A stretch of DNA of 64,000 bases from Amphiura filiformis (Eukaryota > Echinodermata > Ophiuroidea > Amphilepidida > Amphiuridae). Under the pieces are notes generated by a model that saw only the letters and a program-made list of their open reading frames with translations, did no database searches and had not been told where the DNA came from. The stretch spans positions 46,269,613-46,333,612 of the forward strand of contig NC_092637.1 in assembly GCF_039555335.1 (NCBI RefSeq). Reading direction: 5' to 3'. Below, in pieces: positions 22,718 to 58,570 of the stretch. A program made the translations under genes and the position numbers. How positions within the stretch are numbered: position 1 is the first letter of the stretch; each line of letters starts with the position of its first letter.

Positions 22718-23077
22718 ATGATTATGAGGTCTTTACGTTGTATGCTATTCCTTATAATCTTTGCAACTACCACAAAGTTTGCAGCTGCCGATCATGATGA
22801 CTTCCATCTCACTCTCCTTCACACAACTGATGTCAGCTCTCGCTTTGAGCAGTTTGATGCAAACGGCAATAATTGCACCGAGTCTCAGTCTGACAGGGGT
22901 GAATGCTATGGCGGTGTAGCTCGTCGTGTTACAGCAATCAACAAAGTTCGCAATGAACGAAAGGATATCAACGTTCTGTTGCTTGATGCTGGGGATCAGT
23001 TCGTCGGGACGTGGTTTAATTTCTTTGAAGGAAGAGCGACATCATATTTCATGAATTTGATGGGTTATGATGCAATG
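22718..23077 (+). CDS. Gene B exon 1: signal peptide and first metal-site motifs
   Basis: 120 codons ending ATG|GTACGT. The start is the ATG at 22718 (or 22724), giving MRSLRCMLFLIIFATT, a typical signal peptide cut near FAAA|DHDD. LHTTDVSSR replaces the family's DxH motif: Asp kept, His changed to Ser. LLDAGDQF keeps the metal aspartate. There is one NCT glycosylation site. An in-frame ATG at 22634 is less likely because it would bury the signal peptide. Confidence 0.87.
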
Positions 23078-26000
23078 GTACGTTTAAATGTTTAACTCGG
23101 ATGTTTAATTGCTATACGGTCGATTCCAGCGAAAGCGGGGCAAAATTCTTTGTAAAATATCATTAATAAAGGAAATCACGTTATATTGATGGAGCATATC
23201 ATGTCACGTCTAATGTGCTTATTAGGCATATAGGCCATCACTAGCAAGTCATACCAGGGGACAAGCTATAATAGTTTAAATGGTTTAACTGAATCGGCGT
23301 TACCCACTAATTCAAAGATAATGCACCATGCATATTATGCCAATGAATGTTCTTCAATCAAAATGAAATCATTACTGTTGGAAAGATGTTTGTGTGATCT
23401 CTTTTCACATTTAAAACAATTGAATTTCACGGACGACTGAGGGCTCTAGAACACAATAAGTCATTTTATGGAAATCTAGCAGAAATTGATTGAGCCAATC
23501 TGGAAAGGACGTGAGCCTAATATATCGGACATCTTTTTAGGTAAAACATTATACCGTAAAACCTCGTCTTCAAGCATATAGAGCGTTTTGATGAAAGATA
23601 AATTAATACAAAACAGCCGTAAAATATGCCATTTTATTTGGTCTTACAATAGTATTTGCTTGTATCGGTAATCTACTTGCTCCAACTCCATAATGTTATA
23701 ATTTATTTTGTCGATGTATGGCACATGGATTAATTTAGCGTACATCAAAAGCACTCTATATTCTTGTAGACGAGGTTCTACGGTATGGTTTATGTATTTT
23801 AGGTGAACTGCTCTTCTTGTTTTTGACGTGTTTTTTCTTTGCTAATTTTTTTTCTTTTAATGGCAGACGTTTGGAAATCTAGAATTCGCACGTGGTCCGG
23901 AAGGGCTGCCTCCCTTTCTTGAAGATATCGATTTCCCCATGGTTAGTGCTAATCTAAACGTTACCAACGAGCCATCATTGCAGGGATTGTTTAATAAGAG
24001 TGCAATTATCGAATATGACGGAGAACGTGTAGGGATAACCGGCTACGGGCACGAACAGATCAACGTAATAGCAGAGCTTGGTGAGTCTGACCTGTCAGTA
24101 AAAAGACAGTATATGCATAGAAACAACAATGAATGCTGTATTAAGGTGGTACTACATCCCTTGATAAATTTGGCACTACTCAAAATATAATAACACACTC
24201 AGGTAACAAAAGTTATGTGTATTACAGGGTGTCCCAAAAAGAAGAGGCCCACATTGCGCCCTCTTTTTCTCCTATTTCTGAAACGTTGATCAAATATATT
24301 TTGGTATGTAAAGAAACCCTAAATCGTTAGCTTTAATAAACCAAAACAATTCTTTCAATCGGCTCACAATTGTTGAAGATATGCCCTCTTTAAGAAATGT
24401 ACCCGTTTTTTACTCTGTCCACGGATGAGGTTTGGCTACATCAAAGATTTAAACGAAACGCACGGTTAATTACATGGATAGATAATAGCATTAGTCTTGG
24501 GAAATCATTCACTATAAGCGAGGATCACTAGCTAGCTTCAAACATCTTCGCAACCCCGTATTACTGCTGCATTCGCAAGAATCCGGCGCACAAAGCCTTA
24601 AGGATGGTACCCAACGCAATCAATGCAATGAGGACTAGGGCTAAAACCTGTATTCGTCACGGAGGCAACCAGGTAGAGGGCAGAGCAGCACAGTAAACTC
24701 ACTTGAAAAGAACAAAAGACAAACTAAACAGCCATTTTCAGGGCTACCTTTTATTCCAAAAAGAGAAACGACTTATGTTGTCAATAAAAAGAAAGCAAGA
24801 AACGAGAAATACATAAGTAATTGCAAGTATAGCAAAAGAAGTCCCATCCCACATCAATTTCGCTCAAATTAATGACACTTAACAAAATCCATAACCCATA
24901 AGCCCACCGGTAAAGCCCATTCCCTTAAATAAAGTTGTTATTTTATAAAGTTATCATCGAGAAATGTTTTATATTCATGCATGGTATATGCACTTTTCAA
25001 TCATTGAAGTAGCCAAACCTCCTCCGTGGACAGAGCGAAAAACGGATACATTTCTTTAAAAGGACATATCTTCAAAAGTTATGAGCCGATTGAAAAAATT
25101 GTTTTGGTTTATTAAAGCTAACGATTGAAGAATTCTTTACATACCAAAATATATTTGATCAACCTTTCAGAAATAGGAGAAAAAGAGGGCGCAAATGTGG
25201 GGCCTCTTTTTTTTGGGACACCCTGTATATGGGCAAGGAATACTGCACTGGAATTTCAGTGACTCAAGACAAGCGGTACGTTATTAATGATAAGAAAAGA
25301 GGTATCGCTAGAATGCACCTCATTTCTTAACATACCGTATATAACGAATCACTTGTCTTGAATCACTGAAATATCAGTGAAGTAATTGGATTCGTTGCCC
25401 CTATAATATACATAAATTTTGTTACCAGTGTGTAGTTATTTTGTGAGAAAAATGCCAAATTAGTCACAAAATTTATCAGTGGGTGTAGTACCACCGTAAC
25501 GTACAAAGTAGCATGGTATTATTTTCAGCCACTTTAGCGGTCCCTGAACTTTACAGTTGCCCTAAACGAAGTTTAACAGATACACCTGGGTGGTTATAGG
25601 ATAATTGGATAACTTGTCACAGCCTTTCAAGTGCAAAAGTAAACTTTCTGGTTCACTTCGTACATTGTATGGTCAATAAGGCCTTTATCAAACTGCTCAG
25701 AATACTAACCCAACGTAAACCTTTACCTTCATTATAAGCTTTTTGCTAATTTGTTGTTACGGTATCGGAGCCTTCAGTCCATATTTGTCTAGATTTGGTA
25801 ATTTTGTTTAAATAATACAGTTTATTTTTGTAGGCCAGCACATTTATCTGTGAAAAATGAGTCAAGGAAGCCACTGATCACATTTAAGTTTTAATTGAAA
25901 CTGTCTGAGTGCATACCACTTTTAAGAGTTTAGGAGCCATATTTTTAAGAGGCATATTTTTAAAGCTCATCCCACTTTCAGAACTGGTAGATTACAAGTG

Positions 26001-29000
26001 CATTTCAGTTCTGACGAATACTTATTGGAATTTAGGTTCAGTAAATATCACCTCAGACATTAATAAATTTGATGATATCAGAAAAATGTTGCTCAAATTC
26101 AGAAAAAAATATTATTGACTAATGTATTGCACTCAGTTCATTATCCTTATCGTAGTTAAACACCATACACGGTTGTTTGATGGGATCATTTATTAGTTTT
26201 TCAAACAGAACATCATGTACAACCAAAATTTAGGCTTAAACAGCTAAATGTGATATCATGCTAATGAATACAGATGCTTTTGAGTCATTCTCAACTTTAA
26301 TTTCCCCTCTTTAACAAAATAACTCACTTTTATAGTATTTTTTAAAGCTTTTTCGGATAAAAAAATGTATCTATTAATGACACAATTGGTGGCGCTATTT
26401 AGTTACTGAAAATTACTCTTTCAAGCTTTTAATACAAATAATTCCTTTTATTGTTTGATAAAATATGTTTATAAAATTTCCTTGTTGCTTGTTTCACCTA
26501 TTCCAGCTGTTTTAATAGCAGTATTAATTACCTAACCCTTGCAAATAAAGAAATATGATTTAGGATAAATAGCGCCATCTATAGTTAATAATGAAGCCAA
26601 TTCTATATACATCAAACAACCATGCATAATAATACCCTTCATGTCGTTAACCTGGAATAATTACCTTATCATAAAATTCACATAGATATCTGTGTAAATT
26701 TAAGTTTATCATCTATGATATTCTCTGATTTCTCAGTCTATTTATTATGTTGATAATATACTGTAACTTGCTGATGATACATGCGATACTGCAATTCCAA
26801 ACTGTTAAAATACATAAAGCAAATGGCTAGAATTGTACATTAAACACACCTATTAAACTAGAATTGTACATTAAACACACCTAACAAACAACCATCCAAT
26901 CCAACTCCACCCCATCCCCCAGTAGGCAATGAGGATAAAGTGCCTTGCCCAAGGACACAACACATTGGCACGAGCGGGGCTCAAACTCACAACCTATGGA
27001 TTATGAGTCGGGAGCCTTATCCACTCGGCCACACGTGCTCCCACAAAAAAGAGCACTTGTCCAATATTTTAGGCTTACGTACTTTCCAGATTGGCTCATC
27101 ATTTTCTCCTATTTTTAGGTGGTGCCGTATTCACCGACCCTACCCAGGCTTTACAATCAGAAGTAGAGGCTCTGACGTCACAAGGAGTCGACAAGATTAT
27201 CGTTCTCAGTCATCAATGGGGCTCGATCGACACAGATGTGGAAATCGCAAGGACCGTACCAGGAGTCGACATAATTGTAGGAGGTGGACAAAATCACTTC
27301 CATTATACAGGTATGTACATTTATGTGTAAGTGATACAAAGAAAAAACACTACGGCACACCCCACACACACACTCATAAAGATACCCCACAAACAACACC
27401 ACACTCCCACAAGTATACTGGGGTAAGAGCCGCATGCACGCACAGACCAAGAAACATTCGCACGTGATATTTGGTTATCTGGGAACTCCATGTTTTGTCC
27501 CTTGCAAAACAATGAACTATTAAGAGGCTTGCTTTTTGATACATCGTATCATAAGTCATACACTTATCATAACGTTTTCATATGACTTACAATTAATCGA
27601 CTTACGATAGCTTAAATTTGAACTTAAAACTTTCGCCGTGTCACAACTGTGCGCGAATATCGTAACATCACTCATCTTTTATGATTTATTAGGTTGTGCC
27701 CCGGATGTCGAGGTACCTTTGGACGACTACCCTATCGTCGTCACCCCGGATCACGATCCCGACGGCACAGTTCTCATCGTCCATGGAACTATCTATGCTA
27801 AGTACTTAGGTCGACTGAACGTAGTCTTCGATTGTGATGGTAATGTTACAGAATGGTATGGCAACCCTATTCTGCTGGACGATAGTATCGAACAAGGTTT
27901 GTCTTTAAGCCTGTCTCAAAAACAATTGTGCAAGTAGAAAGCGCCATCTTTGGCAATTTGAAAATACTGTTGTGACATGATGCTTACATTATCGCCAACG
28001 GAGGAGCCTTAGCTTTCAAATACCATTTGTTTCATTTATTTTAGTTGCGGCAAACCAGAAATCTGCTTCACTAAACACAAATGTATGAAAAACATTCTGT
28101 GCCACTTTTTTGTATTGTTGTGTAATCAATACATTCTTTGGATTTCACGAAGGAACTCTTGAAAAACTTGATGCTATACTAGTGAAAGTGGCACAATTGC
28201 GATTTTACCCTTTCTTTGTTAATTAGACATATTTCGAGATTAAAAGGAGCAAATTGAACAGAACAAACGGCATTTGAAAGCTAAGACTGCGCCCTTCACG
28301 TTGGTGTAAGCATCATATCACAGCAGTATTTTCTAAATGCCAAAGAGGGCGCTTTTCACTTCAAAAGTCAAAAGTCAAAAGAAAAATGTATATGATATAT
28401 TCCTTATTGAATTTTGTATGATTGCTGGGGCAATGTGACCTCATTTCTCATTTTCCAAAATTAAACGTTGCTGACCTTTGAAATTATGTTAATTGTTGTT
28501 AAGATATTTTGTTTACGTCATAGTGTGCGTCAATAATGTATTCATTGTTTTATTATTTCTCAATGTCAAATAATTTGGCGATCGTTTACGATATTTTCAA
28601 GATTTCGACTAAATCTTTTCATTTCAGACCCAGAAACGCTTATCGAAATAGAAGAATATCGCAAAGACATTCTTGCAGTAACTAACAGGGTGGTTGGCAG
28701 GTCGTTGGTACATCTCCAAGGATCCCCAAGAGGTTCTCTGGTATGCCGCCAGAGAGAGTGCAACCTAGGCAACCTTATTACAGACGCAGTTGTATGGTAT
28801 TGGGTAACGTCATTTAATGACAGGGAATGGAATGATCTATCTATGGCGGTTTTTAACGGTGGTGGAATACGAGACTCCATAGATAAAGGTGTTTATTTCA
28901 TATCCCAAATTTTCGCATAATGACGAATATAAGTATTACAACATTATAAATCACCGATTCGCTGAGTGCGAGAAGCGACAATGGCAAAAATTACATTGGA

Positions 29001-31268
29001 CCGCAAACGCTCTATAGTCATTATAATACAAATAATACCGGTTTATATGTTTTTGATATTCGTCGGTATGTATGCAATGATCACGAATTATAATTTTAAT
29101 CATTGTAACATGTCTTAGTTTTGTTTTCGGTAAGGCTATTGAATTCAGAAACCTCTTTTTGAAATTGGTAATTTTTACAGAAACGCCAATAGTTAGAAAT
29201 TACAAGCCTTTGGTAACTTTCTGAAAATTTATAATTCTAATGATGGTTTGGAACCATCTAATGCTTGCAAATGGCAAGGGTAATTGATATTTGTATAAAT
29301 GTAGCATATAAATGGTTGATAAACTAGCTGTCATATAATACACTTTGCTGTAAAGCGCAAAAATTAACGGTGATGATATAGACGATCTGAACCGTTTATT
29401 ACGCCAACATGTTTTTTTTTCCAATAATTTACGCACACAGGTGAAATTCTATCTCGCGAAATTACCACCGCGTTGCCATTTTTGGCACTATGGTTGCGTT
29501 GCAACTGGAAGGACGTTACATAAGAGAAATGCTGGAACATTCCGTGGCCAACTACCCCACTTCGGGAGCCTTTTTACAAGTGTCAGGTCAGTAAAATTGG
29601 TACACTGCAAAAATTGTGTCTTACCTGAGGACACTATTTTAAGACGCGACTTTGAAGCTACTTTTTAGCCATGTCCTTATGCAAGTCATGTCTTGCATGA
29701 AAACATGGCTTGTGGAAAGACAGGACTTTGAGCTATGTCCTTATCCAAGACATGACTAGCTACAAGACATCAACAACGTATGTAGCTAGCCTTAAGTCAT
29801 GTCTTAATTATTGGAGCAGATTGGACATGTCTTACTTCATGTCCTAATTAAAGACACATTATTGAATAAGTGACTTCTAACAAGTCACTAATTCTTCGAG
29901 TCGTGTCTTATCGCAAAACTAGACATGACTCATATGCATAAAGTCATGACTAACCACAAGACATGTGGTTATGATATGGGACTTGCACAAAGACGCTAAA
30001 TTAAGACATGTCTACTGAAGATATATCTCCATGATAGACACAATTTTTGCAGTGTAGATTTGCTTGTTTTCCAAAAACGGGTTTCAGTCTCAGTGGCATA
30101 ATATACTTTCCATGTCAGCTCCTCTTATCAATACAAGTTTCACAGTTTTCGCTCGTACACAAAAGTTGCAAATTTCCTATATTTTGACCGGAAAGTGTAA
30201 AAATAAAAATTCTTGTTCCGTTCGTCTTCAAAGAAGTTATTTCAGTCAAAATATGTGCACATTAGAGAAAGAATTTGGAAAAAAAACCTTCTGATAATTA
30301 CAAACACTCGCTGAGTAGCAAGACCTTCCCTCTAAGCTTTTAATCCGATAAGCTGATTATCTATTTGTTTTCATGAATTGGAAGACATTCTTTGATGTAT
30401 TACTGAGCTCAATCATCTGAAATTACTGGCGCGTGAACCACCCAGGCTGGTGGCTCAGCATAGTATTTTATTAACAGAAGGTTTTCTCCAAATTCATTTC
30501 CTAATGATTTAGGTCGTCAAAAAAGGAAAGATTTTGTAGCCCTAAGACAGAGATGCGGGTACCATGCACCTAATACTTTGGGCAACGCTTGTTTTTCCTC
30601 AAATGTCTCTAAAGACATTTCATGTACTTTTTACCATTCTCAGGAATACGAGTAACATACAATATATCAAGAGATCCTTATGACGGACGAGTAGTTGAGG
30701 TATTTGTGCTATGTACTGAATGCCGTATCCCGAAGTTTGTCCCATTGAAAGATGAACTAACTTACCGTATTGCTGTTCCGGCTTATACCGCTTCCGGTGG
30801 TGACGGATACGGAGTTGTACGTGATTATGCAGTCAACAGGATGGAAGGTGGGTATTCTGTTACTACATTGCATCATTTTGGAAGAAGAGTTTCCAAAGAG
30901 TTCAATGCACCTTGCTAATGGTAAAGAAATATCAACAGAGTTTTTGTTAAAGAAGGAATCGGAAAGTGCTGATGGAATAGCAGTAGAAATAATTTATATC
31001 CTGCTGATCTTTTGAAAATAACAATGTTACCAATTCAAAAGAATAAAAGACTAAAAATTACAGATTAGTAATGCACGAAATTGATCGTTATAGATTACTT
31101 TAATTATGATTCAATAATCTAAACATTTCTTAATATTTTTTATTTTGTGTGTTTTTGTTCCCTTATTTAACAGGTGGTGTTGACGCTGAGATTTTAGCTG
31201 CATACATCGAAAAATTTTCTCCAGTTTTTGTTGGGCTTGAGGAAAGAATTAAATTCGTTGATTCGTAA
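22718..31268 (+). CDS. NT5E-like: Gene B: secreted ecto-5'-nucleotidase-like protein, probable pseudoenzyme
   Basis: Eight exons: 22718-23077, 23867-24080, 27119-27310, 27693-27896, 28628-28888, 29441-29586, 30644-30847, 31174-31268. All introns are GT-AG; the first junction is phase 0 and the rest phase 1. If one missing base in exon 6 is allowed for, the protein is about 558 residues, close to human CD73 (574). It has a signal peptide, the metallophosphatase domain (exons 1-3) and the C-terminal nucleotide-binding domain (exons 4-8), but no GPI-anchor tail. Against the known CD73 metal ligands (Asp36, His38, Asp85, Asn117, His220, His243), it keeps Asp36, Asp85, Asn117 and His220 but has Ser for His38 and Gly for His243. 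The catalytic His118 and Asp121 are Leu and Ala. The substrate-binding residues are mostly kept. Hydrolysis is therefore unlikely; nucleotide binding is plausible. Confidence 0.85.
23555..23788. mobile_element. MITE in gene B intron 1
   Basis: Ends TACCGTAAAACCTCGTCTTC and TGTAGACGAGGTTCTACGGTA. Same family as about 48695-48936 in gene C intron 1. Confidence 0.78.
23867..24080 (+). CDS. Gene B exon 2: altered GNHE motif
   Basis: Acceptor TAATGGCAG, donor GTGAGT, 214 nt, the same length as gene C exon 2. TFGNLEFARGPEGL stands where active enzymes have GNHEFD: Asn kept, catalytic His changed to Leu and Asp to Ala. NVT and NKS glycosylation sites follow. Confidence 0.87.
24145..25495. mobile_element. 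MITE in gene B intron 2, host of a nested element
   Basis: Outer terminal inverted repeats GGTGGTACTACATCCCTTGA and the complement ending TGTAGTACCACC, about 35 bp. The middle is occupied by the element 24225-25225. Confidence 0.75.
24225..25225. mobile_element. 1.0-kb Tc1/mariner-like inverted-repeat element, nested
   Basis: Very long inverted repeats (about 200 bp). Ends are CAGGGTGTCCCAAAAAGAAG and the complement ending TTTGGGACACCCTG, with TA on both sides. Inside the arms, TAAAGAAATGTA and GTCCACGG pair. No transposase frame, so it was moved by an outside enzyme. Confidence 0.85.
26168..26624. mobile_element. MITE in gene B intron 2 (copy 2 of 5470-5916)
   Basis: Same ends (CACGGTTGTTTGATGG and ACATCAAACAACCATG) and same body, including GGTGGCGCTATTTAG. 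Confidence 0.82.
26885..27043 (-). repeat. tRNA-derived SINE in gene B intron 2
   Basis: On the minus strand: A box TGTGGCCGAGTGGATAAGGC, B box GTGAGTTTGAGCCCC, then GTCCTTGGGCAAGGCACTTT. It shares the tRNA-like head type with the split sequence at 12779/17390. It sits 76 bases before exon 3. Confidence 0.8.
27119..27310 (+). CDS. Gene B exon 3: end of metallophosphatase domain
   Basis: Acceptor CTATTTTTAG, donor GTATGT, phase 1 both ends. VLSHQWG keeps the histidine equivalent to CD73 His220. DIIVGGGQNHFHYTG has Gly where the GGH motif needs the metal-binding His243. Confidence 0.87.
27693..27896 (+). CDS. Gene B exon 4: inter-domain and start of C-terminal domain
   Basis: 204 nt, phase 1 both ends. 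YPIVVTPDHDPDGTVLIVHG and AKYLGRLNVVFD correspond to the family segment that ends the catalytic domain, followed by NPILLDDSIEQG. Confidence 0.87.
27910..28361 (+). mobile_element. MITE in gene B intron 4
   Basis: Left end CCTGTCTCAAAAACAATTGT begins 14 bases after the exon 4 splice junction. The body matches 11370-11666. The right end stops at GCGCTTTTCACTT, missing the final inverted repeat. Confidence 0.78.
28628..28888 (+). CDS. Gene B exon 5: substrate-binding motifs
   Basis: 261 nt, phase 1 both ends. VCRQRECNLGNL and VFNGGGIRDSID match the CD73 segments containing Arg354 and Asn390/Arg395, all of which bind the nucleotide; they are kept. Confidence 0.9.
29441..29586 (+). CDS. Gene B exon 6, with a one-base frameshift
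   Basis: Acceptor ACGCACACAG, donor GTCAGT. Reading from phase 1 gives EILSREITTALPF and then drifts to a stop. After the T-run at 29479-29483 the family sequence resumes one base out of frame as LEGRYIREMLEHSV and ends FLQVSG. The exon is 146 nt; 147 would keep phase 1 into exon 7. So one base is missing, probably a T. LPF holds the equivalent of CD73 Phe417. Confidence 0.83.
29603..30054. mobile_element. CACTG-ended MITE with many AAGACATG repeats
   Basis: Terminal inverted repeats CACTGCAAAAATTGTGTCTT and GACACAATTTTTGCAGTG, flanked by TA. Inside are about ten copies in both directions of AAGACATGAC / GTCATGTCTTA. CACTR ends and dense subterminal repeats recall EnSpm/CACTA elements; the TA flank would instead fit Tc1/mariner. 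Confidence 0.78.
30260..30506. mobile_element. MITE in gene B intron 6 (copy 2 of 20253-20497)
   Basis: Inverted relative to copy 1. Shares GCAAGACCTTCCCTCTAAGC and ACATTCTTTGATGTATTACT. Ends match the copy 1 terminal repeats. Confidence 0.8.
30644..30847 (+). CDS. Gene B exon 7: nucleoside-binding loop
   Basis: 204 nt, phase 1 both ends. GIRVTYNISRDPYDGRVVEV, CTECRIP, then VPAYTASGGDGYG. Tyr replaces the stacking Phe500 of CD73 (aromatic kept), and the aspartate is kept. Confidence 0.88.
31174..31268 (+). CDS. Gene B last exon
   Basis: 95 nt ending TAA. GGVDAEILAAYIEKFSPVFV then IKFVDS. No hydrophobic tail for a GPI anchor. The stop lies inside AATAAA (31267-31272), a possible polyadenylation signal giving a very short 3' UTR. 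Confidence 0.88.
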
Positions 31269-31272
31269 TAAA

Positions 31273-35434: not shown

Positions 35435-35646
35435 TTACTGTCTCTGTTTTCGTGGTTTGCCTCTGCCACCACCTCCACCACTGCCTTGTCTCCTAGTAGT
35501 TGTAGGTGATGTTGTCTTTGGCGAAGTTGGTCTTGGTGTAGTCTCTGTGCATTCGCCTTCAACAAATGTTATACGACCTTCTACGTATCGGTTTATGGGA
35601 GTAAAACGCGCGATGTAATCTGCCAACACATCTTCTCCTAGATCAC
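35435..35646 (-). CDS. Gene C last exon with Thr/Pro, Gly and basic tail
   Basis: Acceptor ATACAACAG. Family part DVLADYIARFTPINRYVEG then RITFVEGEC. Where A and B stop, this exon goes on: TETTPRPTSPKTTSPTTT, RRQGSGGGGGRG, KPRKQRQ, stop. The Thr-rich part could be O-glycosylated and the end is strongly cationic. Confidence 0.85.
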
Positions 35647-35824: not shown

Positions 35825-35870
<46 letters not shown>

Positions 35871-38800
35871 TAAGATAAATAAACGCACTATGCAAAGCCT
35901 CTAGGCGCTGAACATAATTACGGAAAAAGATCAACTTAAACCAAGGGTTATGCGATGGTGCGCTTCTTGTCTTACGAATGAAGTGCCGATTGTTTCATAA
36001 CGTGATTTAACAGGGCAATCAGACCCCCATATATGTGTTTATAAATAAGCACAAGTACACGCGCTACAAGTACCGAACTGCTTTTGCTGGTATCGCTTAT
36101 CAACGTTGACAGCATTTATTTAAAAACTTCATCAACAATATCAATATCACAGTATTCTACAGATGTCACATGTGCTGCCTTTGTATTCACTTACCAGCAA
36201 CATAATTTTCACCTTCATTTGTAACAACCTCATAGCCATTACCACCCTCGCCTATAAATGACGGCATGATGACTTTATACACTTTGTCGTCATCGAGAGG
36301 CTCATAGTAAGACTGTAAGCAACCAAGATACTTCAATACTTGAACATCAACAACTCGTCCATCGTATGGTTCTTGGCATAGGTCATAGGTTACTTTCAAT
36401 CCTAAAACAGATTAAAGAATATATTATACAAATATCACCTGCCCATGAATGTGATTGATTGGGTATTACATTATTCTTTCAAGATTCACGATTTCACACC
36501 ACCAAAAAGTATTATATGGTTGTGCGCCCTGAATGCATTTCTCAGAAAAACCGATAGATGGCCTAAAGTAAGCATTAAATTGAGCAGAAATTTGCATAAC
36601 TTTGGCTAAATTTGGATAGGTCATGATAAGTAATATCAAATCCTGAAAATGTGCCTCAGATGGGAGAGATCGAGTATTTTTTAATGATTTTAGCAGCCTT
36701 TTCTATACAGAAACACTGGCATGATTTTGGATGTCGTGCCAGTAGTAAAAAATAATGACGGTCAACCTATATTTTTCCCAGTCAGAGGGATCAGGCTAGG
36801 GTGTTTTCTTGAGGCAAATTTAGTACATATCTCTATGGAGATTTATTTGGTGGTGTGAGATCTGCAAAGTTAAACATTAAGAGTTAAATTCGGGTAAACT
36901 AATAGTGTAAAGATATATTCACCGCGTGAATATATCTTTCCAACATTACACAATAAACAAAAAAGAGGGAATGTTACAATAAAAAGGCATTTCGTGATCC
37001 ACAGCCTCATCACCCACTTTTCTCAAAATAAAATTGAGATTTTTATATCACTGGGTACCTCTGGCTACATAATGTTTATGTACAAAATATTTCTTGCAGA
37101 TCAATTCGTTTAGCAAAGATATCGTGAAATTTGAATTTCGTTCTGGATATGTACTGAAAAATGTCATAAAAAGAAGATGCTAGGATCACGAAATATTCCT
37201 TTAAGTTATTACACCAAACGTTGACTATTACGTAATGAACCATACCAGCTACTTGAAGAAACCATCCTGAAAGGAACCTACTCCGGCAGATACTGCTTGT
37301 TCCAACATCTCCCTTACATATCGGCCTTCTAACTCAACAGAGTCAAATGTATTACTGAAAGGTAATACTGCTTTGATGTCACTCTCATAATAAATATCAC
37401 CTGAAGAGGGTAGTAAAAACAACAAATAAAATAAAAACAATAAAAACAGCAAGCTAGTGGCCATAGCTTTGCATTTAACATGTAGAGTCACTTTACAGGA
37501 ATTAAAATGGTATATGGTTTGCGGACGGCGTAGAAAGCAATACCGATATCCAATTTTTGATTGATCATTCAGTGAGTTTATATATAAGCATAATTGGATC
37601 AGGGAAACGACATCCGCATGCAGCACCTCGTGCCGTCGGTATCGCCGGTATCGGCGACGTAACTTGTGTTGTTACTTAGGTTGCATCTTCATATTATATT
37701 CTGATTCAGTTTCCTCCCATACCAAGATATTCAATAAGTGTCCGCATTATTTTGAGACTATTTTTAATCTTCCTTGCATAAATTTACATAAGAAAATTGT
37801 ACCATATGGTCCAGGTATGGCATACCTTCGTTAATGTTATCCCTGATCCCACCTCCATTCATGAACGCAATTATTGAAGCGTTTAGCGCTTCTTCTTCTG
37901 TCAATGACTCCAAACACTTCCAAATCATGGCATCGGCGAGTAGATTACCAAGATTACACTCCTGTTGACGGCATGGTATTATAGGGTTGTTCCTTGGTGT
38001 ACCTCCACCTTCCAGGAAAACGTCAGCTCTTCCCACTATAACAGGATCATTAGGATTAGAGATTGGCTCAGCCCATTCCATGATCTCCTCAAGCAAAGGT
38101 GGATCTAAGTGTCATTTGATAGAAAAAAAGAACACGATGCCAAAAAAATATACTTAAAATCTTTGTTCACTTTGCCAACAGACAGCTCTACTACCCTGGG
38201 GAAAAATGACGGTGTGCATCATCCAGAAGTTTTATTCATGGCTATAAGGCGCTGCACTTTTATTCTGCATTCTGTTGTTATTTTGTAATGTTAGGTAGAA
38301 TAACGTTTAAGATCTTATATTATCTACGTGTTTGATCCCGAAATGTCTTGTGGGATTCCAATGCTGTTAAAGTTCTCTTTATCTATTTACCTTGCTCAAC
38401 ATCTTTGTCCAGTAGAATTGGTCCACCATTAAAATCTTCGACCTTTCCCTCTTCGTCGAAGGTCACGTCAAGACGTCCCAAGTATTTCGCAGTATGGTAT
38501 CCATGTACAATAAGGACTTTCCCGTTCGGGTCATCATTAGGGGTAATTACTATGGGGTATGGTTCCAAATTGAAGTTTTCAGGCACGTCCACAGGTGGAG
38601 AACAGGACGTACAATCATCTAAATACATTGTGAAGGGAATCATAGAACGATTAGATTAGAATAAAAATATAGTTTAGATATAGGATTGAATGTCAAAGTT
38701 GAGTGATCACATAATTATTGGGCTATTCAAATTGAAATATACACCCCTTTGGAAGATTTTGGAAATATCTTCCACAGGGGGAGTATGAATTTCAAATTAA

Positions 38801-41800
38801 GTAGCTCCATTTGAATTTCGTGCACCCTCTGATATAGACCAGAATCTTCAACCGAGGGAGGATGAGATAACATGCTAATTCCATTTGAAATGCATACTCC
38901 CGTGGTGGAAGATATTTCTAAAATCTTCCACAGGGGGAATGTAGATTTCAACTGGAATAGCCCATTATACATTACAGGACACTTAGAAATTTATCCATTT
39001 GTACTTAATTTGTCCCTGAGATTATTATTTGTACATTATTTGTCCCTGTATATGCTTGTCATACAACCAGAGGCGCTAACTAAATTAGGAATAAGTTACT
39101 TCAGCTGCTTTTGTCCCAGAGGATGATTTAAGGAAGCCCCATCATGCACTGCAAACGTGTTATCAGCAGAGTTTCAACTGCCACTTTACTTTTCAAATCC
39201 CATTGAATTCTGTGCAAAAGACGTTGTTTAAGAATTGTGCGTGTGTCATTATTAGTTGGTCGATTTCAGATCTAAAGTGATGTATGCATGAAGGATAATT
39301 CACACCTTCTGTAGGTAACATAAAATGTGAAATCGACCAGCATTGTGAATGCGTTTTTATTGTAAATATATCAGTCCAAATTCAAATTTAACCATGGCCG
39401 TCAATGCACTGTGCGAGCAGCAGTCGTGTCATGTTCACTCACACAGCTGTGCTAACCGCAAGTCAACACAGTGGCGTGGTGGGAAGTGCTTAAATCATCC
39501 TCTGCTTTTGTCCCATCCGGACTTCCGGGAAGCGACTTTTGTTTGTCATGTTGGACTCTTTTAGGATGCAGAATGATTAATGATTTATTTCCGGTAAGGC
39601 TTTTGTCATATCGTCCGTCCAATTTACCTGTTGATTAACAACCATTTTGCCCTGATTTTGCTCGATAAACAGCAAGTTACCGCTTCGGTCTGTTTCTACA
39701 GAAAACGAGGTTTCCGTTGACGTTGAAAAGGCGTTGCAAAAAGGCGTTGGAGGCTGTTTTCCATATCGTTTCCATAACGGTATTTGGCTCTGTAGAAACA
39801 CGCTCAAAGTTATTTGCCTTTGTCATTATAATTCGCGATGTTTTATTTGTTCATTTTTCGTTAAGTAAGTCAAATCTTATCAGTGCTTTGATTGACTTGA
39901 CTTAACATATGTGTACATATGTGTACACCTTGGCATCGAATGCTTACCATCATACTGGTATATATCCAATCCACCAATCACGATGATATCAACACCAGAA
40001 ATGGTACGAGCAATCTCAGCAACTTCAGTCTCCTCTACACCAGATCCGGAAGACTGACCGAGAACAATGATCTTGTTGACGCCCATTGATGTCAATGCGT
40101 CCACTTCTGTTTGGATGGCCTCGATTGGATCATCCAAGACGTTCGCTGTAAGAGATTAATAATGTAAGCATCAGCTCTACTACTTTAAATGCCAAGATAC
40201 GTGGTTCTCACGTCCATACGTTCATAAAATAAGATACTGATTGCATTCTATAATGAACTGCCCAAGTCGTTTTTGTAAACACGTATTTCTTTGATATGAT
40301 TAAATTAGATGATTAAAATAAAAATCATTTTAAAATGGAGAGCTTGGCCATATATTACCCAAACTTAATACAAAGAACACATTACACTACATGAACTGGC
40401 ATTGCAGTAGGCCTACTCGGTTATGTGAAGTCAGCACTGGTCCCTTATAAGCGAGTGGCAAGTATCATATACTTTGGTATTAAAATCTCTTATTCTGTCA
40501 TGTGAAAGTTCAATAACCACAACAATTATTCTTTCACACTGTCTTGTTCCATGCCCAAGGACAAAATAAATGGCATGTGGCGAAATTTATCTTGAAAACT
40601 AAAGCAAGTACCATATGTTACACTATGAACTTGTCAAGACCCATTGAAACTCATTATCCTAGGTCAAAAAACAGACGATGACTGCCCATTGAATTGCTAT
40701 GAACGTAGATGCCTTCTGAACGTTAAGGGGTCGGTCTGTATTGTCTCAAATATCTCCGAAATGGGAGAAAACTGCCATGTTTGCTGTGAAATTTTGCCTA
40801 GCAATATCTATCTCAGGTGCAAAATTTATGGTGCACATGAAAGAATGAAGTCTTTAGATTAATATTTTAGCAATCTTAATATTATTAGTTGATAGGAAAT
40901 TCTTCAAATATGCCTGTACATATAACGACGCATAACAGCCCACGCAGTTTTTTATAGGTGAACTTTTTTCGAGCAGTCCGTGTTGGACGATGACCCTATC
41001 TTTTTGCCGAGGTATTTACAGGACCTTGAAATAAGAATTATGATAGATATTTGCGACTTCGGAATGCAACGAAGGCATGTTTGAAGCTCGTCAATACACA
41101 AAATACTACCTGATTTTACACTCTCGTCGACCACTGTCTGGGGCATGTTATTTTGTTACTCTAAATTCAACAAAATTCCAATTTTTCAGGCAAAAAGACT
41201 TCTAGAGATACCATCCTACATGTCCATGTTCGATTTATGGTAATACAATTAACCAATTTTTAAATATCAATTTGTTTAGATTCACGGAAGCCATATTTTG
41301 TACATTTTCGACAGTAACGAGTTAACGCCAATTTTGGTACAAATTTGTCAGTTTTGCCAAAGTTATTTATCCGGTTAACTAACGAATACCAAGGTTCATA
41401 GGCGAGCTATAGCGCTATGTTATTTAACCACTTTTACTTACGATTATTTTCATGATTCCGTTTGAGAACAAATTAATATAATTCCTTATGGGTCTCCAAC
41501 TTCCCCTGTCTTCAAGCTTCTTCACACGACTATAATTGAGACCGAATTGAAAAGACTAGTTTGCGTATGACGTCCTGTCAACCAGACCAAAAATGCCGTA
41601 CTGCGCAGGTCAGTAACCAATCACGTCTCGCCTTTGCCCTGACGTCAGACGCAAACTAGTCTTTTTTAATTCGGTCTTCAATTATAGCCATGTTTTATGG
41701 AGTGTTGCCAGACAAGTCAAAAGCAAATTGGGACAAATCGGCACTAAATATGGCCCGTAACTACACTCAATATATCACCCAAATGTCCATGTTATTTAGG

Positions 41801-44800
41801 GTACAATGTTAATGTAAATAAATTGTAATATACAATATTATTTTAAAACAGTGTTTAAAATGTTCTAAGGTGCGTATGCGCGATTCTTTCTTCCGTTTGA
41901 GTTTTAGTGTATATACCTATAATGTATTGACAATCAATTCATAAGAAGCCCAAAGTTAATACCAACACTGCAGCGCTGGCAATACGACCAATTCTGTAAA
42001 ACGATATGACATGAAATCGTTCCGCTTGATTTATCAGGTCTATAAAGGTGACAAAGGAACAGGTCTCTAGTTTGATTCCACAACCATTCAAACCGATCTC
42101 ATGTTTTATTGTATTATCATGTATTAAAATGAGGATGGCTATGTCATAAATAGACCGGAACAATATAACCGTATACTACCACCTGTATTGAAGGACAGTT
42201 CTAAGATACAGGGTGTTCCAGAATGATCTATACCGTGTTTGAAAAATTAATCAAAAATGTATTTAATTTTAGTACCGGTACATGGAATACAATGACATAA
42301 ATGTCACCCACTTATTGTGTTATTTTCATTGCAAAAACTTGATTCGTTTTGGCGTGATATTGATATTCTTAAAACTGGACAAAAATTGCACGTATGTAAC
42401 TTACAGCACAGGCTTCATAAGCACAAGACATTGCTGCTTCATCACTATCGCCCAGACGTAGACCTAGGCCTACTTTGCAATATATATAGTGTAGAAATCA
42501 TTCAGTTGTCAAAGGAGATACACCAAATTTGGCACAAATGTAGAGCTTGAAACACTGAATAATTCTTAATATTGATTTAAGTGACCTTTTTCATGTGTTT
42601 TCAATATTAGTCCCGATATTTTTGCTGAATTAAAAAAAAAAATTGCGATAAATTTTACGCCAAAAATGTAATTCTTATAGAGGATATAACTTGTTCAAGA
42701 AAAACTTGCTGCAAATGTAATCTTCACCTTTTCCTAGTTGTGTGTTTGCCAATATACATAAATACATGCTGTGGCACAAGGACGAATCTTCTCTATAATA
42801 TTTTTATAATAGGCCCCTAAATCAATCTCTGCCGGCATTTCAAATGATGAAACTCACACACCGCAATCATTATTTTCGAAACTGCCGCCAAAGACGACAC
42901 ATGCAGTATTAGGTAAATCAAGCTTAACAAATCCTTTATACCATGCATGCTAGTAATCGATAGATCATAACAAAATTAGCTGCAAAACTTTTTCCAAATA
43001 ACTTTGTGCTGAACGGTCATTCATTATTTTCATAATAGATTGTATTGTCAAAACTTAAACTTCACCATTGTACGCAATATTCTGTAATTTCTTTTAGAAA
43101 CATTCGATCTTTAAAATCTTAAATTACCAAAAAAGCTAAATATAGGGGCCTATGTAATATTTAGAACTCAAAACAATACGACTGATAACAATGCTACCTA
43201 CAAAATTCAACTTTCCCGGTATGGATCTTTCTGGGACACCCATCCAGCTTAAGATGACAGCGAGACAGGATTCTCTAGATCGATTACACGGCCATTCATA
43301 CCTATTACCTGTTTTAGGAACAAACCAAAAATCGATGACGTCTTATAAACGAAACCAGTTTCGTTTAAGGGGTAGGGGGTAAAAATACTCGATTACGTTT
43401 GTACAAAAACATCGGTCTGAAGAATGTTTCATTATTATTATTATGTCAAAATTTCCAACATTTCATTATTACGTTTCTGGCATGGAGGGAGGGGGTCGGC
43501 TGAGAAACGAAACTAGTTACGTTTATTGGAAGTCATCGATCTGTTGGTTTGTTCCCTTATTGTAACCTTATAGAGGCCAGACTTTTATTTGAATGATAAT
43601 GGCTCTGTCACGCCGTACTGATTACCCTCTGTACGGAATGTTACATCACAATCTTGATCGACTTGACAACAGGTACACCCCGGTACAAATAATTGTAAAT
43701 GGTGGAAAGTCGTATTTATGACAAAATGATTAAAAAGTGATACTTTTAGGTATTATTCTGTTAGTTTCTGTTTGGCAAATCATAAATACTCACGTGTTTT
43801 GGTCAAAATGGCAATAATCTTTTTTCTACCCCTACCCACCTGAAATAGCTAAACACAACCCTTAAGATAATAAAAATAGTTATAGATGATCAGATTGATT
43901 GGTCTAAGTATGTACGATCCATGATTCATAATCTCATTAATAAACGCGATGCGTGCGATCCAATCATATTTTATTATTTGTGAAAACGCGAACGCAAATC
44001 GAGGTCATTAATATCTCACAATTGACCGCAAAATGCGTAATTGTTCCAATGTCGCACACAATTGACTTCTGCGTGCGCCGTATTGTGCGTCCAACGAACT
44101 GGGTGCGCGCTGGCTGCCGTATTTGGATTGCGCGCTACCAAGTATTTGCACAGATTCTGATACGCACTTTTGTTATTGGTCGTTTTGTTTTAGCCTGATC
44201 GATTTTGGGAAAGGGAAGATGTAAGAATTATTTATTTTTACAAACTTTTGAGGAAAATTTTGTGTTATTTTGTAAAGTTAAAAGATCAAAGTGACGGTTA
44301 TGAATGAGGTTAATAACTTTGCATCGGTTATATGTCGGGCATTGTATCTAAACATTTTGCTTTGGACCTCGGAATATCCCTCGGGGCTGCGCCCCTCGGG
44401 ATATTCCTCGGTTCCAAACGCACAATGTTTAGATTCTTCACAATGCCCTACAAATAACCGATGCGCAGTTATCAACCTCTAATTAATGTCTCGCCAATTT
44501 TCCTACTCACCAATATTTCCCATTCCATTGAACGCTTGTGACCCATAGCCAATGACACCAACTCGCTCATCACCAAACATCTTCACAGCACTCTTACCAA
44601 TGCGTCTCTGTAAGGCTGGTGCCGTTGTAGAATTGAAGTTGGCACTTAGTACGTCGAAAGTTGCTTCATCTAAGAAGATTCCCAGGAAAGCTGGACCAAG
44701 AAGAAACTCTTGATTTCCTAGCGTCTGTAAAAATTATGTTATTTGATCAGTGAGCGAACGGTGGTGATACTTTACTGTCATCATACGAAAAATAACGGGT

Positions 44801-47800: not shown

Positions 47801-49508
47801 AAATTTGAGTTTGAAAGAGCGGAAAATTTGTGAAATGACCATAACGGCTATTTCCTATTCGTGGACAAGTTTTCAATATTATAATGTAACGGCTCATTTC
47901 CTATTCGTGGACAAGTTTTCAATTATTATAATTGTATAAATTTAATTGCTTGCGCGACGCAGGGGGTGTCTGAGGGGGATGTGCCCCCTCAGAAGTAAGA
48001 AACTTTTGCAAAATGAAGACCTAATTGAAGCCATTTGGTGGACCATTTTGACATTATTATTGTGTGAAATTTGAGTTTTAAAGAGCGGAAAATTTGTGAA
48101 ATGACCATGCCGGCTCATTTCACATTCGTGGACAAGTTTTCAATATTATTGTATAAATTAAATTTCTCTCCTTTCCCCTTTTCTCGTTTTTACGGGGGGC
48201 GCGCGCCCCATCTTTCCTACTTTTGCTTTTTTTCGGGGGGCGCGCGCCCCCTCCGCTCCCCCCTGGATCCGCCCCTGTTGTGTTTGTGTGTGTGTGTGTG
48301 GGGGGGGGGGGGGTTAGAAGTTTTGTTAAATATGACTGAGAAGGTAACTGAGGGGGGGGGGATGGATGTGACAAATTAACAAATGAGCGCGAAATAAAAG
48401 CATTTGGTTGACACCTTTTACACAATTATTATGTAAAATTTTAGTTGGAAAAAAATTGCAAAAATGTTCAATATGAAGGTCCAAGTTGTTTGCAGTTCAT
48501 TTCTACTGGCGAGCAAAGCGTGCAAAATGTGCAATTATACACTATTGTGTGGGGTGGGTGCGGTGATTGTGTTGTGGAGTACACGCGCATGTTAACATGA
48601 CAATTGCTCCATCAAGGATAAAATAGGAAATAAAGAAGAAAATAAAAGTAAATTGGCATTTGGCACCCAAATAGGATCATTTAATAAACACATTACAGTA
48701 AAACCTCGTCTACAAGCATATAGTGTGTTTTTGATGAAAGCTAAATTCAAACGAGACAGCCGTAAATATGCCAATACAATATATTGGTCTTACAATAGTA
48801 TTTGTTTATATATGTTTGTATCGGTAATTCATTTGCTCAAAATCCATAATATTATAATTTTGTCGATGGATAGCGTCTAGATTAATTTAGCTGTCATCAA
48901 AAGCACTATATATGCTTGTAGACGAGATTTTACGGTATGTTGTTTATTGCTCAAAAACTCTGTCCTGAAGTTAAAATTAGGAAACAGAGATTGCTTTTTA
49001 CTGCATTTATAGTACACTTTTTGTAAGAGGCAAAATTGGTCTTACTCCAAAGTAAATGGCAGTATCCATAAGTGATTACTGTGTTTTGTACAACCTGGAG
49101 TGCAAAATTAATCTGCTTTACATCAGGAAGTTATAATACATGATCAATTGTTCAGCTTACCATCGCATCATATCCCAGTTGGTTCATAAAATAAGAAGTC
49201 GCTCTTCCTTTATAATGATCAAACCACGTTGGTAATCCACCTGTAAACGGATTTCCTGAATCCAGCAGACACACATTGATATCATCTCCTTCATTGCGGA
49301 CTCCATTAATGGCAGTGCCACGTCGAGCAACTCCTCCAAAACATTCCCCATTTTGGTTTTCCTCAGGACTACATTCATCTCCGGAGGAATCAAACTGTTC
49401 AAAGGAAGATATTACGCCGAACGTGTGTAGGATAGTAAGGTTGAAGTCTTGGCGGGCATTGCAAGCCACGATTAGCCCAACGATGAGAAAGATAAACGGA
49501 GTCTGCAT
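35435..49508 (-). CDS. NT5E-like: Gene C: secreted ecto-5'-nucleotidase-like pseudoenzyme with a basic tail
   Basis: Eight exons on the minus strand: 49508-49161, 44724-44511, 40145-39948, 38618-38391, 38104-37826, 37400-37246, 36401-36195, 35646-35435. Canonical GT-AG junctions; phases equal those of gene B. Allowing one missing base in exon 6, it would be about 613 residues, longer than B owing to its tail. Of the six CD73 metal ligands only Asn117 remains: Asp36 is Gly, His38 is Ile, Asp85 is Asn, His220 is Gln and His243 is Gly. Catalytic His118 and Asp121 are Gln and Leu. Hydrolysis by the known mechanism is not possible. The C-terminal domain keeps CRxxECNLGNL, MNGGGIR and LPF, but the nucleoside-binding Asp is Asn. 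The C-terminus is Thr/Pro-rich, then Gly-rich and Arg/Lys-rich, with no GPI signal. Confidence 0.85.
35826..35870. repeat. (AAT)n microsatellite in gene C intron 7
   Basis: About 15 uninterrupted TAA/AAT units. Confidence 0.95.
36195..36401 (-). CDS. Gene C exon 7: nucleoside-binding loop
   Basis: 207 nt, phase 1 both ends, donor GTAAGT. GLKVTYDLCQEPYDGRVVDV, then MPSFIGEGGNGYE: the stacking Phe is kept and the CD73 Asp506 equivalent is Asn. Confidence 0.87.
36981..37204. mobile_element. 224-bp MITE in gene C intron 6
   Basis: Ends AAAAGGCATTTCGTGATCC and GGATCACGAAATATTCCTTT are inverted repeats. Starts 42 bases from exon 6. Confidence 0.78.
37246..37400 (-). CDS. Gene C exon 6, with a one-base frameshift
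   Basis: Reads GDIYYESDIKAVLPFSNTFD then LEGRYVREMLEQAV, ending GFFK and a TAG stop (37251-37249). One base out of frame, the usual VAG| splice end follows. At 155 nt the exon leaves phase 0, but exon 7 needs phase 1; one extra base near 37253-37256 restores both. So one base is missing. Confidence 0.83.
37826..38104 (-). CDS. Gene C exon 5: substrate-binding motifs
   Basis: 279 nt, phase 1 both ends. CRQQECNLGNLLADAM and FMNGGGIRDNIN match the CD73 nucleotide-binding segments (Arg354, Asn390, Arg395 equivalents). It is 18 nt longer than gene B exon 5, in the GGGTPRNNP loop. Confidence 0.88.
38391..38618 (-). CDS. Gene C exon 4
   Basis: 228 nt, phase 1 both ends. Begins DDCTSCSPPVDVPENF, an extra cysteine-containing stretch not in gene B, then YPIVITPNDDPNGKVLIVHG and AKYLGRLDVTFDEEGKV. 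Confidence 0.88.
38720..38963. mobile_element. 244-bp MITE in gene C intron 3
   Basis: Ends GGGCTATTCAAATTGAAATA and ATTTCAACTGGAATAGCCC. GGAAGATTTTGGAAATATCT pairs with its complement on the other side. Confidence 0.85.
39948..40145 (-). CDS. Gene C exon 3: both metal histidines lost
   Basis: 198 nt, phase 1 both ends, donor GTAAGC. VLGQSSGSG has Gln at the His220 position. DIIVIGGLDIYQYDG has Gly at the His243 position. Confidence 0.87.
40150..44304 (-). other. Gene C intron 2
   Basis: About 4.4 kb (40146-44510). Holds a full CRE-type MITE (41531-41696), a solitary TIR-like CAGGGTGTTCCAGAATGATC near 42208, and otherwise anonymous AT-rich sequence. No other gene recognised. Confidence 0.5.
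41531..41696. mobile_element. MITE with TGACGTC motifs, copy 2
   Basis: Close match to 4894-5049 including TGACGTCCTGTCAACCAGAC and both inverted ends. Confidence 0.87.
44305..44480. repeat. 176-bp hairpin-forming palindrome next to gene C exon 2
   Basis: GAGGTTAATAACTTTGCATC at the left pairs with the right end. The centre is GGAATATCCCTCGGGGCTGC against GCGCCCCTCGGGATATTCC. Stem of about 80 bp with a tiny loop; 30 bases from the exon 2 donor. Confidence 0.85.
44511..44724 (-). CDS. Gene C exon 2: altered GNHE motif
   Basis: 214 nt, phase 0 to 1, acceptor TTTTTACAG, donor GTGAGT. TLGNQEFLLGP stands for GNHEFDNG: Asn kept, His changed to Gln and Asp to Leu. VLSANFNSTTAP and ERVGVIGYG follow the family pattern. 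It has no start codon of its own. Confidence 0.87.
44725..46860 (-). other. Gene C intron 1, distal part
   Basis: AT-rich with no recognised repeat. A 113-codon frame on the plus strand at 45184-45525 has no domain and biased AT-rich composition; not called. Confidence 0.45.
46861..47656. repeat. Tandem duplication, 438-bp offset
   Basis: 46861-47300 and 47299-47656 both run from TAATGTAATAATAATTATTC to GGGCGACGAACTATA. The second copy lacks about 80 bases that in the first lie between two CCTCAGTTG repeats, a deletion by short homology. Confidence 0.85.
47582..48277. mobile_element. hAT-like element in gene C intron 1
   Basis: Ends CAGCCGCGGATCCAG and CTGGATCCGCCCCTG. Inside, a 200-base unit starting GCTTGCGCGACGCAGGGGGT is repeated twice (47677 and 47949). 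The left end is also present in the first copy of the tandem duplication (47220). Confidence 0.7.
48280..49160. other. Gene C intron 1, proximal part; GT/G-rich run
   Basis: A GTGT...GGGG run at 48278-48314, then AT-rich DNA. CAGTAAAACCTCGTCTACAA at 48697 pairs with TGTAGACGAGATTTTACGGT at 48915, the ends of an old MITE. A relative (TACCGTAAAACCTCGTC ... GACGAGGTTCTACGG) occupies 23560-23785 in gene B intron 1. Confidence 0.55.
49161..49508 (-). CDS. Gene C exon 1: signal peptide, metal motifs lost
   Basis: 116 codons ending ATG|GTAAGC. MQTPFIFLIVGLIVACNA is a good signal peptide; an upstream in-frame start at 49553 would bury it. LHTFGVISS stands for the DxH motif (Asp to Gly, His to Ile). 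LLDSGNPF has Asn for the metal Asp. DECSPEE and GGVARRGTAIN are almost identical to gene D. Confidence 0.87.
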
Positions 49509-52500: not shown

Positions 52501-52783
52501 TGATGAGTGCAACTTTCTTTACACTAGGTGTTTGGCCGTTTTAAAAAATGTTCATGTATTATTGTATTCACAGTTACATTGTAGATAAAACTTAAGTAAA
52601 AAGAAACAGAGCATCAAAATGAGCCACGTGGAACTCAATATTCAGGATTAACAGCAACCCATATATTAGGGACGCACTATTGAATTCAGGGGGATGTTGG
52701 AAATTGTGATGAGTGCAATTTTCTTTACACTAGGTGTTTGGCCGTTTAAAAAATCAAAATGAGCCACGTGGAAGTCAATGAAT
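49554..52783. repeat. Satellite array, 16 units of about 206 bp, at the 5' end of gene C
   Basis: CAGCAACCCATATATTAGGG recurs with a period of 204-207 at 49561, 49767, 49974, 50181, 50386, 50592, 50798, 51004, 51211, 51417, 51621, 51826, 52033, 52239, 52446 and 52652. The last unit is internally deleted. Units are about 95 percent alike. Each unit holds one CACGTG E-box in GAGCCACGTGGAACTC. The array begins about 45 bases upstream of the gene C start codon. Confidence 0.95.
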
Positions 52784-52917
52784 AAGTAACTTTGAAATAT
52801 ATGAGCAGGTTAAAACATAAAGTGTTATTGGTGATATTGACAAACTTATTGCAACAATTTAAATCCTTTTCATTGAAGTTAAAAGTTAAAAGTTAAAAGT
52901 TTGGGCTGCCATATGAA

Positions 52918-53138
52918 GACCTGAGCGCAAGAAGACCGTAAGTCCACTTTGCCCCTCAACATGTATACACTAAAGTTGCGTATAGTTTCGTATAGTGTGG
53001 TAATGTTTTATACATGTTCAGGGGCCAAAACAAAAGAACATGTATTAAACATTATAAAACCCTAAGAAACTGTACGTAACTTTAGTGCATACATGTTGAG
53101 GGACAAAGTGGACTTACGGTCTTCTTGCGCTCAGGTCT
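52918..53138. mobile_element. Palindromic MITE
   Basis: GACCTGAGCGCAAGAAGACC pairs with GGTCTTCTTGCGCTCAGGTC. The arms continue through GTAAGTCCACTTTG and CATGTATACACTAAAGTT. Confidence 0.87.
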
Positions 53139-53139
53139 G

Positions 53140-55894: not shown

Positions 55895-56103
55895 GGGACG
55901 CACCATTAGACTTCAAGGGGGGGAGGAAGTTGTGGTCTTGGATTTTTTTTAAATTTCATGCATTTATACACAGTTAGGTGGGGGAAGTTTTAAAAAACAA
56001 TTTTTTTTAGTGTTGGTGGAATTTTTTTTGCTCATGTAGTGGGGAAAGGTTTTTTTTTCAAAACTTCCTAGCCCCCACCCCTTGAAGTCTAATGGTGCGT
56101 CCC
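55895..56103. mobile_element. 209-bp MITE with GGGACGCACCATT ends
   Basis: Ends GGGACGCACCATTAGACTTC and GAAGTCTAATGGTGCGTCCC are perfect 20-bp inverted repeats. The same end motif opens each unit of the satellite at 49554-52783 and closes a relative at about 63050. Confidence 0.87.
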
Positions 56104-56109
56104 GACCAC

Positions 56110-58078: not shown

Positions 58079-58087
58079 AATATATAA
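58079..58087 (+). promoter_or_regulatory. Candidate TATA box of gene D
   Basis: AATATATAAACG about 150 bases before the start codon. A short upstream frame starts at 58124. TTCTTGCAG directly before the start codon could instead be a splice acceptor from a non-coding exon. Confidence 0.35.
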
Positions 58088-58231
58088 ACGAATGCATATT
58101 GAACTTTTGAAGGTGTTTTGAAAAATGCAGCGCGCGATACCTATTTAAAGCTGAAACTGGTTCACAGACAAAAATGCGTTGTGTACCCCTGCCATAGTCA
58201 AATAACAAAATTCGTCTGTGATTCTTGCAGT

Positions 58232-58570
58232 ATGGATCACCTTACTCTCGCTCTCCTTTATGGGCTAATCTTAGCCTGCAATGCTCACCAAGACTTCCAC
58301 CTTACCATACTACACACATTCGGCGTAACATCTTCTTTCGAACAATTTGATTCCTCCGGAGATGAATGTAGCCCAGAGGAAGACCAAAATGGGGAATGTT
58401 TTGGAGGAGTTGCTCGTCGTGGCACTGTCATCAATGATGTCCGCAATGAACGAAATGATATCAACGTTTGTTTATTAGATTCGGGTGGACAGTTTACAGG
58501 AAGGTGGTTTGATTATTATAAAGGAACAGCGACTTCTAGCTTTATGAAAGATCTGGGATATGATGCGATG
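58232..58570 (+). CDS. NT5E-like: Gene D exon 1: 5'-nucleotidase-like, metal motifs lost
   Basis: 113 codons ending GCGATG|GTACGT, phase 0, as in genes B and C. MDHLTLALLYGLILACNA is the signal peptide. LHTFGVTSSFEQF has Gly for the first metal Asp and Thr for the His; LLDSGGQF has Gly for the other Asp. It is closest to gene C exon 1. Exon 2 is not found in the remaining 5.4 kb. Intron 1 of gene C is 4.4 kb, so exon 2 may lie beyond the right edge, or the gene is a fragment. Confidence 0.85.

Follow-up and report, generated by a model that had tools for sequence, protein, structure and literature searches.

Can a protein fold outlive the active site that it carries, and if so, what is it kept for? 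CD73, the ecto-5'-nucleotidase, sets extracellular adenosine levels in animals, and a stretch of DNA from the ophiuroid Amphiura filiformis raises the question for this enzyme. The window, by which we mean the whole 64,000 nucleotides analyzed (contig NC_092637.1, positions 46,269,613 to 46,333,612), is animal DNA with four CD73 gene copies, here called A, B, C and D. A first-pass annotation had read B, C and D as a local family of secreted, catalytically dead 5'-nucleotidases. That reading stands in so far as the catalytic machinery has been lost and purifying selection followed the loss, but it has to be qualified for reading frames that are broken as assembled. We consider it highly probable that the three copies form a family of CD73-fold pseudoenzymes. 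The fuller reading, in which these are soluble secreted proteins that would bind nucleosides or nucleotides without cutting them, is one that we hold with slightly less than even confidence.

Two of the copies are complete, with eight exons each that pair one to one: B on the plus strand (22718-31268) and C on the minus strand (49508 to 35435). Their internal exon borders have AG acceptors and GT donors, also at the exons with the motifs quoted in the first-pass annotation, which had rightly described the splice sites as kept. The other two copies are partial observations. D consists of exon 1 only (58232-58570, plus strand, 113 residues), and exons beyond it were not found within the window. 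A, a copy absent from the earlier annotation, consists of exons 7-8 (4108-5436, plus strand) and is matched by the C-terminal part of human CD73 with E=7e-18; its exons 1-6, including those that would hold the active site, were not found in the window. Rfam and tRNA scans gave no matches. All exons are collected in Table 1.

Table 1. Exons of the four CD73-like gene copies in the window, with residues numbered as in human CD73.
Feature	Position	Strand	Observation
A exon 7	about 4109-4314	+	tblastn with B exon 7, 70% identity
A exon 8	about 5342-5436	+	tblastn with B exon 8, 87% identity
B exon 1	22718..23077	+	signal-like N-terminus (by eye); LHTTDVSSR (H38 to S); DAGDQ retained
B exon 2	23867..24080	+	GNLEFA (H118L, D121A)
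B exon 3	27119..27310	+	LSHQ (H220 retained); GGGQN (H243G)
B exon 4	27693..27896	+	
B exon 5	28628..28888	+	CRQRECNLGN (R354) and NGGGIR (N390, R395) retained
B exon 6	29441..29586	+	F417 retained; internal one-base frame break as assembled
B exon 7	30644..30847	+	Tyr at F500; D506 retained
B exon 8 and stop	31174..31268	+	terminus RIKFVDS; without GPI-anchor-like tail
C exon 1	49161..49508	-	LHTFGVISS (D36G, H38I); DSGNPF (D85N)
C exon 2	44511..44724	-	GNQEFL (H118Q, D121L)
C exon 3	39948..40145	-	LGQSS (H220Q); VIGGLD (H243G)
C exon 4	38391..38618	-	CTSC stretch not in human CD73
C exon 5	37826..38104	-	CRQQECNLGN and NGGGIR retained
C exon 6	37246..37400	-	F417 retained; one-base frame break near 3' end as assembled
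C exon 7	36195..36401	-	F500 retained; D506N
C exon 8	35435..35646	-	fold end, then 40-residue Thr/Pro-rich, Gly-rich, basic tail; without GPI-like tail
D exon 1	58232..58570	+	LHTFGVTSS (D36G, H38T); DSGGQF (D85G)

By descent, B and C are of the CD73 type. Homology covers nearly their full length and both domains of CD73/NT5E (PF00149 and PF02872), with E-values of 1.4e-84 for B and 2.1e-67 for C against the CD73 chain 4h1y_P, and of 1.9e-14 for exons 7-8 of C. Identity to human CD73 is 44% for B and 41-42% for C, and the two share 51% with each other. PF02872 scores above its cut-off in both. The metallophosphatase domain PF00149, in contrast, has no match at E<=1 in B, C or D (the last with 113 residues only), whereas the controls, human CD73 and two bacterial proteins, match it at 42-59 bits. 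In a tree calculated without the active-site columns, B and C fall into one clade (support 0.996), to the exclusion of human CD73 and of the bacterial relatives described below; since human CD73 is the only other animal sequence in it, the tree barely informs us on when this clade began. Two viral scans returned pattern matches (1 and 47 stretches), none of which was confirmed as a relative.

We take H220 to be a di-metal ligand and N390 a nucleoside contact of CD73; all residue numbers are those of the human protein and were checked by counting. The roles of N117, H118, H243, R354, R395, F417, F500 and D506 follow excerpts of PMC7508162, and the metal ligands and the His/Asp pair of the tsetse and E. 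coli proteins, as given in excerpts of PMC2843633, were mapped to human CD73 by motif. All motifs quoted in the first-pass annotation are present: LHTTDVSSR, GNLEFA and VGGGQN in B; LHTFGVISS, SGNPF, GNQEFL, LGQSS and IGGLD in C; LHTFGVTSS and SGGQF in D. Among eight active-site positions, B keeps D36, D85, N117 and H220 and carries H38S, H118L, D121A and H243G. C keeps N117 only (D36G, H38I, D85N, H118Q, D121L, H220Q, H243G), and D has lost all three sites that can be read in it (D36G, H38T, D85G). Counted over the di-metal ligands (D36, H38, D85, N117, H220, H243), 4/6 are kept in B, 1/6 in C and none of the three readable ones in D. The catalytic pair H118/D121 is replaced by Leu/Ala in B and by Gln/Leu in C, and lies beyond exon 1 of D. 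Neither B nor C thus has the full set of di-metal ligands or the catalytic pair expected of an enzyme. The earlier description of the family as lacking a working metal site suits C and D but goes too far for B, with its four remaining ligands. Transcripts using other exons that restore the motifs had been named as a possible refutation; neither a six-frame scan for the motifs nor a tblastn search with human CD73 revealed such an exon in the window, the only match being B's own DAGDQ.

Whether these replacements exceed ordinary divergence can be judged against bacterial relatives. Of 297 confirmed loci, the 80 most similar to human CD73 form the comparison set; judging from their titles, most are alphaproteobacterial. 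Reading frames were selected by a filter that required GG[VIA]A and N.GG[IL]R and left the metal sites outside; 79 loci were readable, and one (L052), for which the filter gave no frame, was left out. In the N-terminal domain, identity to human CD73 is 41.8-51.0% for the bacterial proteins, 45.5% for B and 41.3%, just under the bacterial range, for C. Seven of the eight active-site positions are intact in 79/79 relatives, the exception being D121 (72 relatives with Asp, 7 with Asn). Proteins of the bacterial UshA/NadN type are thereby unlike B and C, even though the nadN and UshA models match B with E-values of 9e-42 and 4e-26, both under the curated cut-offs.

With 83 near-invariant positions as the baseline, retention was compared between the active site and the rest. 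C keeps 1/7 active-site positions versus 60/76 others (p=0.001), and D keeps 0/3 versus 18/21 (p=0.01). In B the ratio is 4/7 versus 60/73, which is non-significant (Fisher, p=0.14). Adding D121 to the active-site set gives p=0.056 for B and p=0.0004 for C. Active-site loss is therefore beyond chance in C and D, while B alone is without significant enrichment.

The pattern of losses allows part of their order to be retraced. B and C have both lost H38, H118, D121 and H243, and at the first three the replacements differ between them; D36, D85 and H220 are kept in B and lost in C, and D36 and D85 are lost in D as well. The simplest reading is a stepwise loss that began before B and C split, and independent losses are possible. 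C and D have D36G in common, and H38 and D85 are missing from the two as well, with different replacements; most likely, then, the loss is older than their own split.

This history makes it possible to ask how the protein evolved once its site was gone, with selection testable in exon 1 (C-D) and in exons 7-8 (A-B) only. For mature exon 1 (93 codons), the C-D comparison gave a dN/dS of 0.19 (p=7e-6 against 1), and for the full exon (113 codons) 0.30 (p=8e-5). An equal-age clock, which treats two copies in one genome as equally old since their duplication and assumes equal mutation rates, yielded for mature exon 1 an omega of 0.17 for C (p=5e-5) and 0.22 for D (p=3e-4). Without the clock and with B as outgroup, omega=1 is not rejected for C or D (p=0.82 and 0.058 in mature exon 1; 0.45 and 0.28 in full exon 1), and the B branch is saturated, as were outgroup branches in the branch tests generally. 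The pairwise A-B comparison of exons 7-8 gave a dN/dS of 0.31 (p=2e-4), and the clock version an omega of 0.15 for A and 0.40 for B (p=0.009), with the outgroup length at its bound; this test tells us less about selection after the loss in B than the C-D test does, since A may be either dead or active. Neutral dN/dS, another possible refutation named at the outset, is accordingly rejected where it can be tested, namely in exon 1 of C and D and, with the clock, in exons 7-8 of B. In these testable parts, purifying selection has acted on the protein after the site was lost. An estimate of B-C dN/dS over seven exons was discarded, as dS is saturated and the maximum-likelihood estimate ran off.

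The C-terminal domain supplies the contacts to base, ribose and phosphonate. R354, N390, R395 and F417 and an aromatic residue at F500 are present in both B and C, and D506 is retained in A and B and replaced by Asn in C. This amounts to 6/6 nucleoside contacts in B, counting the Tyr at 500, which also occurs in 70/79 bacterial rows, and to 5/6 in C (D506N). A nucleoside-binding protein would be expected to retain such residues. The presence of N390 and R395 in 79/79 bacterial relatives holds by construction, because the filter required N.GG[IL]R. Compared with other invariant positions of the domain, the five invariant contacts are kept at 5/5 versus 19/25 in B (p=0.55) and 4/5 versus 23/28 in C (p=1), no better than the remainder, so that conservation of the pocket does not go beyond that of the fold. 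The fold itself looks maintained, as cysteines 51, 57, 353 and 358 are present in B and C. In total B has 6/8 and C 5/8 of the human cysteines, two of the eight being missing in the bacterial set too. That cysteines 365 and 387 are lost as a pair was considered as a further sign of fold maintenance and dropped, as the bacterial set is also without both.

The termini set B and C apart from CD73/NT5E just as the missing ligands, catalytic pair and PF00149 match do. A and B stop after RIKFVDS, right past the last strand, and C continues for 40 residues that are first Thr/Pro-rich and then Gly-rich, with 9 K/R and 2 D/E. By eye, none of A, B and C has a hydrophobic C-terminal GPI signal; the signal peptides were likewise assessed by eye. 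From these ends, B and C are likely secreted as soluble proteins.

The catalytic His/Asp pair is gone in B and C, and the metal ligands are lost partly in B and almost wholly in C. In the mechanism that we propose, the kept C-terminal domain would bind nucleosides or nucleotides and leave them uncut. Outside the cell, such proteins might serve as carrier, buffer or decoy. Nucleoside binding through this domain, as suggested by the retained contacts, may occur, and we give it a little under an even chance; affinity for nucleotides may be poor, since H118 and the metals on the phosphate side are gone. In its widest form the proposal describes an old, expanding secreted clade, in which an adenosine-making enzyme would have turned into a non-catalytic extracellular purine binder by stepwise loss of the metal site with the nucleoside clamp kept. 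This scenario is tentative, and we regard it as possible rather than probable.

The retained C-terminal domain is open to other explanations. CD73 is a homodimer through this domain, and dead paralogs could pair with an active one, perhaps A or another copy, and tune or block it. The clustering of the genes would give co-expression a chance, and A, which is close to B, is strongly constrained in exons 7-8 (omega 0.15). An active copy is not seen in the window, however, where the active-site exons of A were not found either, and with only 51% identity between B and C, and a new tail on C, a common dimer face is unproven. We judge a role as regulatory partner unlikely.

Equally unlikely in our estimate is a reuse of the fold as a matrix component or protein ligand, in which it would attach to a receptor or to a scaffold outside the cell and purines would be irrelevant. 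There is precedent for a dual use of the fold in the salivary 5'-nucleotidases of blood-feeding flies, which are secreted, as is likely for B and C, and have no GPI tail: excerpts of PMC2843633 describe the tsetse protein 5'Nuc as a binder of the fibrinogen receptor GPIIb/IIIa, which gives the fold a role apart from catalysis, and the homologous chrysoptin as a binder too, for which an apyrase role is suggested instead in PMC2853526. According to the same excerpts of PMC2843633, tsetse 5'Nuc prefers ATP and does not use AMP as a substrate, and it keeps the metal and catalytic residues that are lost in the proteins described here. The basic, Thr/Pro-rich and then Gly-rich tail of C would suit such a role, but A and B are without it. 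The nucleoside pocket residues kept in B and C would also be unneeded here, even if the remainder of the domain is conserved to the same degree.

Returning to the preferred reading of selected, non-catalytic proteins, one difficulty lies in exon 6. The reading frames had been described as kept, which does not hold as assembled: both B and C have a one-base frame break in exon 6, and a further exon 6 was not found in the window, for B by tblastn. In B the protein stays conserved before and after the break, which lies at a short T run; the break in C is without a long homopolymer. A satellite beside C offers a yardstick. Its 15 monomers of 206 bp (3091 bases) contain 3 singleton one-base indels, 2/3 of them in homopolymers, a rate of about 1 per kilobase with real changes included, which the two breaks of B and C, spread over about 4.2 kb of coding DNA, do not exceed. 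As single-base indels are as frequent in the satellite, assembly slips are possible for B and C, and each break is possibly such a slip or a fresh mutation. If real, the break in B is probably recent, given the constraint in exons 7-8 downstream of it.

These breaks would be expected if the copies were pseudogenes that have lost their function and whose remainder is decaying. Each complete copy has one and no replacement exon in the window, and a slip is less obvious for C, where the break is outside a long homopolymer. Decay nevertheless fits poorly with seven other exons in both B and C that have no in-frame stop, with the GT/AG splice sites, with a 9-base indel between C and D that is in frame, and with post-loss omega values well under 1, while the two breaks would be explained as well by assembly slips at the satellite rate. 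We rate the pseudogene explanation as quite improbable. That the proteins are still enzymes with altered chemistry, B perhaps holding one metal ion on its four remaining ligands (D36, D85, N117, H220), is very improbable given the replacement of H118/D121 in both proteins and the single ligand left in C.

If the reading of B, C and D as secreted non-catalytic binders is true, a purine clamp without scissors could serve in nature to soak up purines, as part of a sensor or as an antagonist, and it would offer a ready control for the separate workings of the two domains. Comparing B, which is half-degenerate, with C and D, which are nearly fully so, would also reveal the sequence of steps by which an active site is taken apart while selection continues. 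Among the matches listed in the open-access literature, judged by their listings, there was no dead 5'-nucleotidase family, and one paper that mentions pseudoenzymes and nucleotidases together concerns, by its listing, an adenine phosphoribosyltransferase. Interest is tempered by the frame breaks and by the fact that pseudoenzymes are frequent in general.

The window also contains several repeats and other elements. A 376-codon frame on the minus strand (1524-2654) has weak reverse transcriptase and GIY-YIG matches, both below the Pfam cut-offs, and is presumably a fragment of a Penelope-like element; a 174-codon open frame on the same strand (60512-61036) has no Pfam match. In the last intron of A, a 94% inverted repeat (4475-4604 and 5050-5179) forms a fold-back element, and an element that contains a 155-bp tandem repeat is present in two inverted copies (93%) at 12807-13736 and 16544-17327. 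The satellite beside C is a tandem array with a 206-bp unit at 49555-52753 (15.5 copies, 97% match) that ends 46 bases upstream of the C start codon and hence lies inside the leader or promoter region of this gene. Intron 1 of B and intron 1 of C hold a related element (80%; 23542-23793 and 48685-48947), whose best match runs opposite to the gene orientation while part of it matches the other way, so that it is likely a mobile element and not a shared intron.
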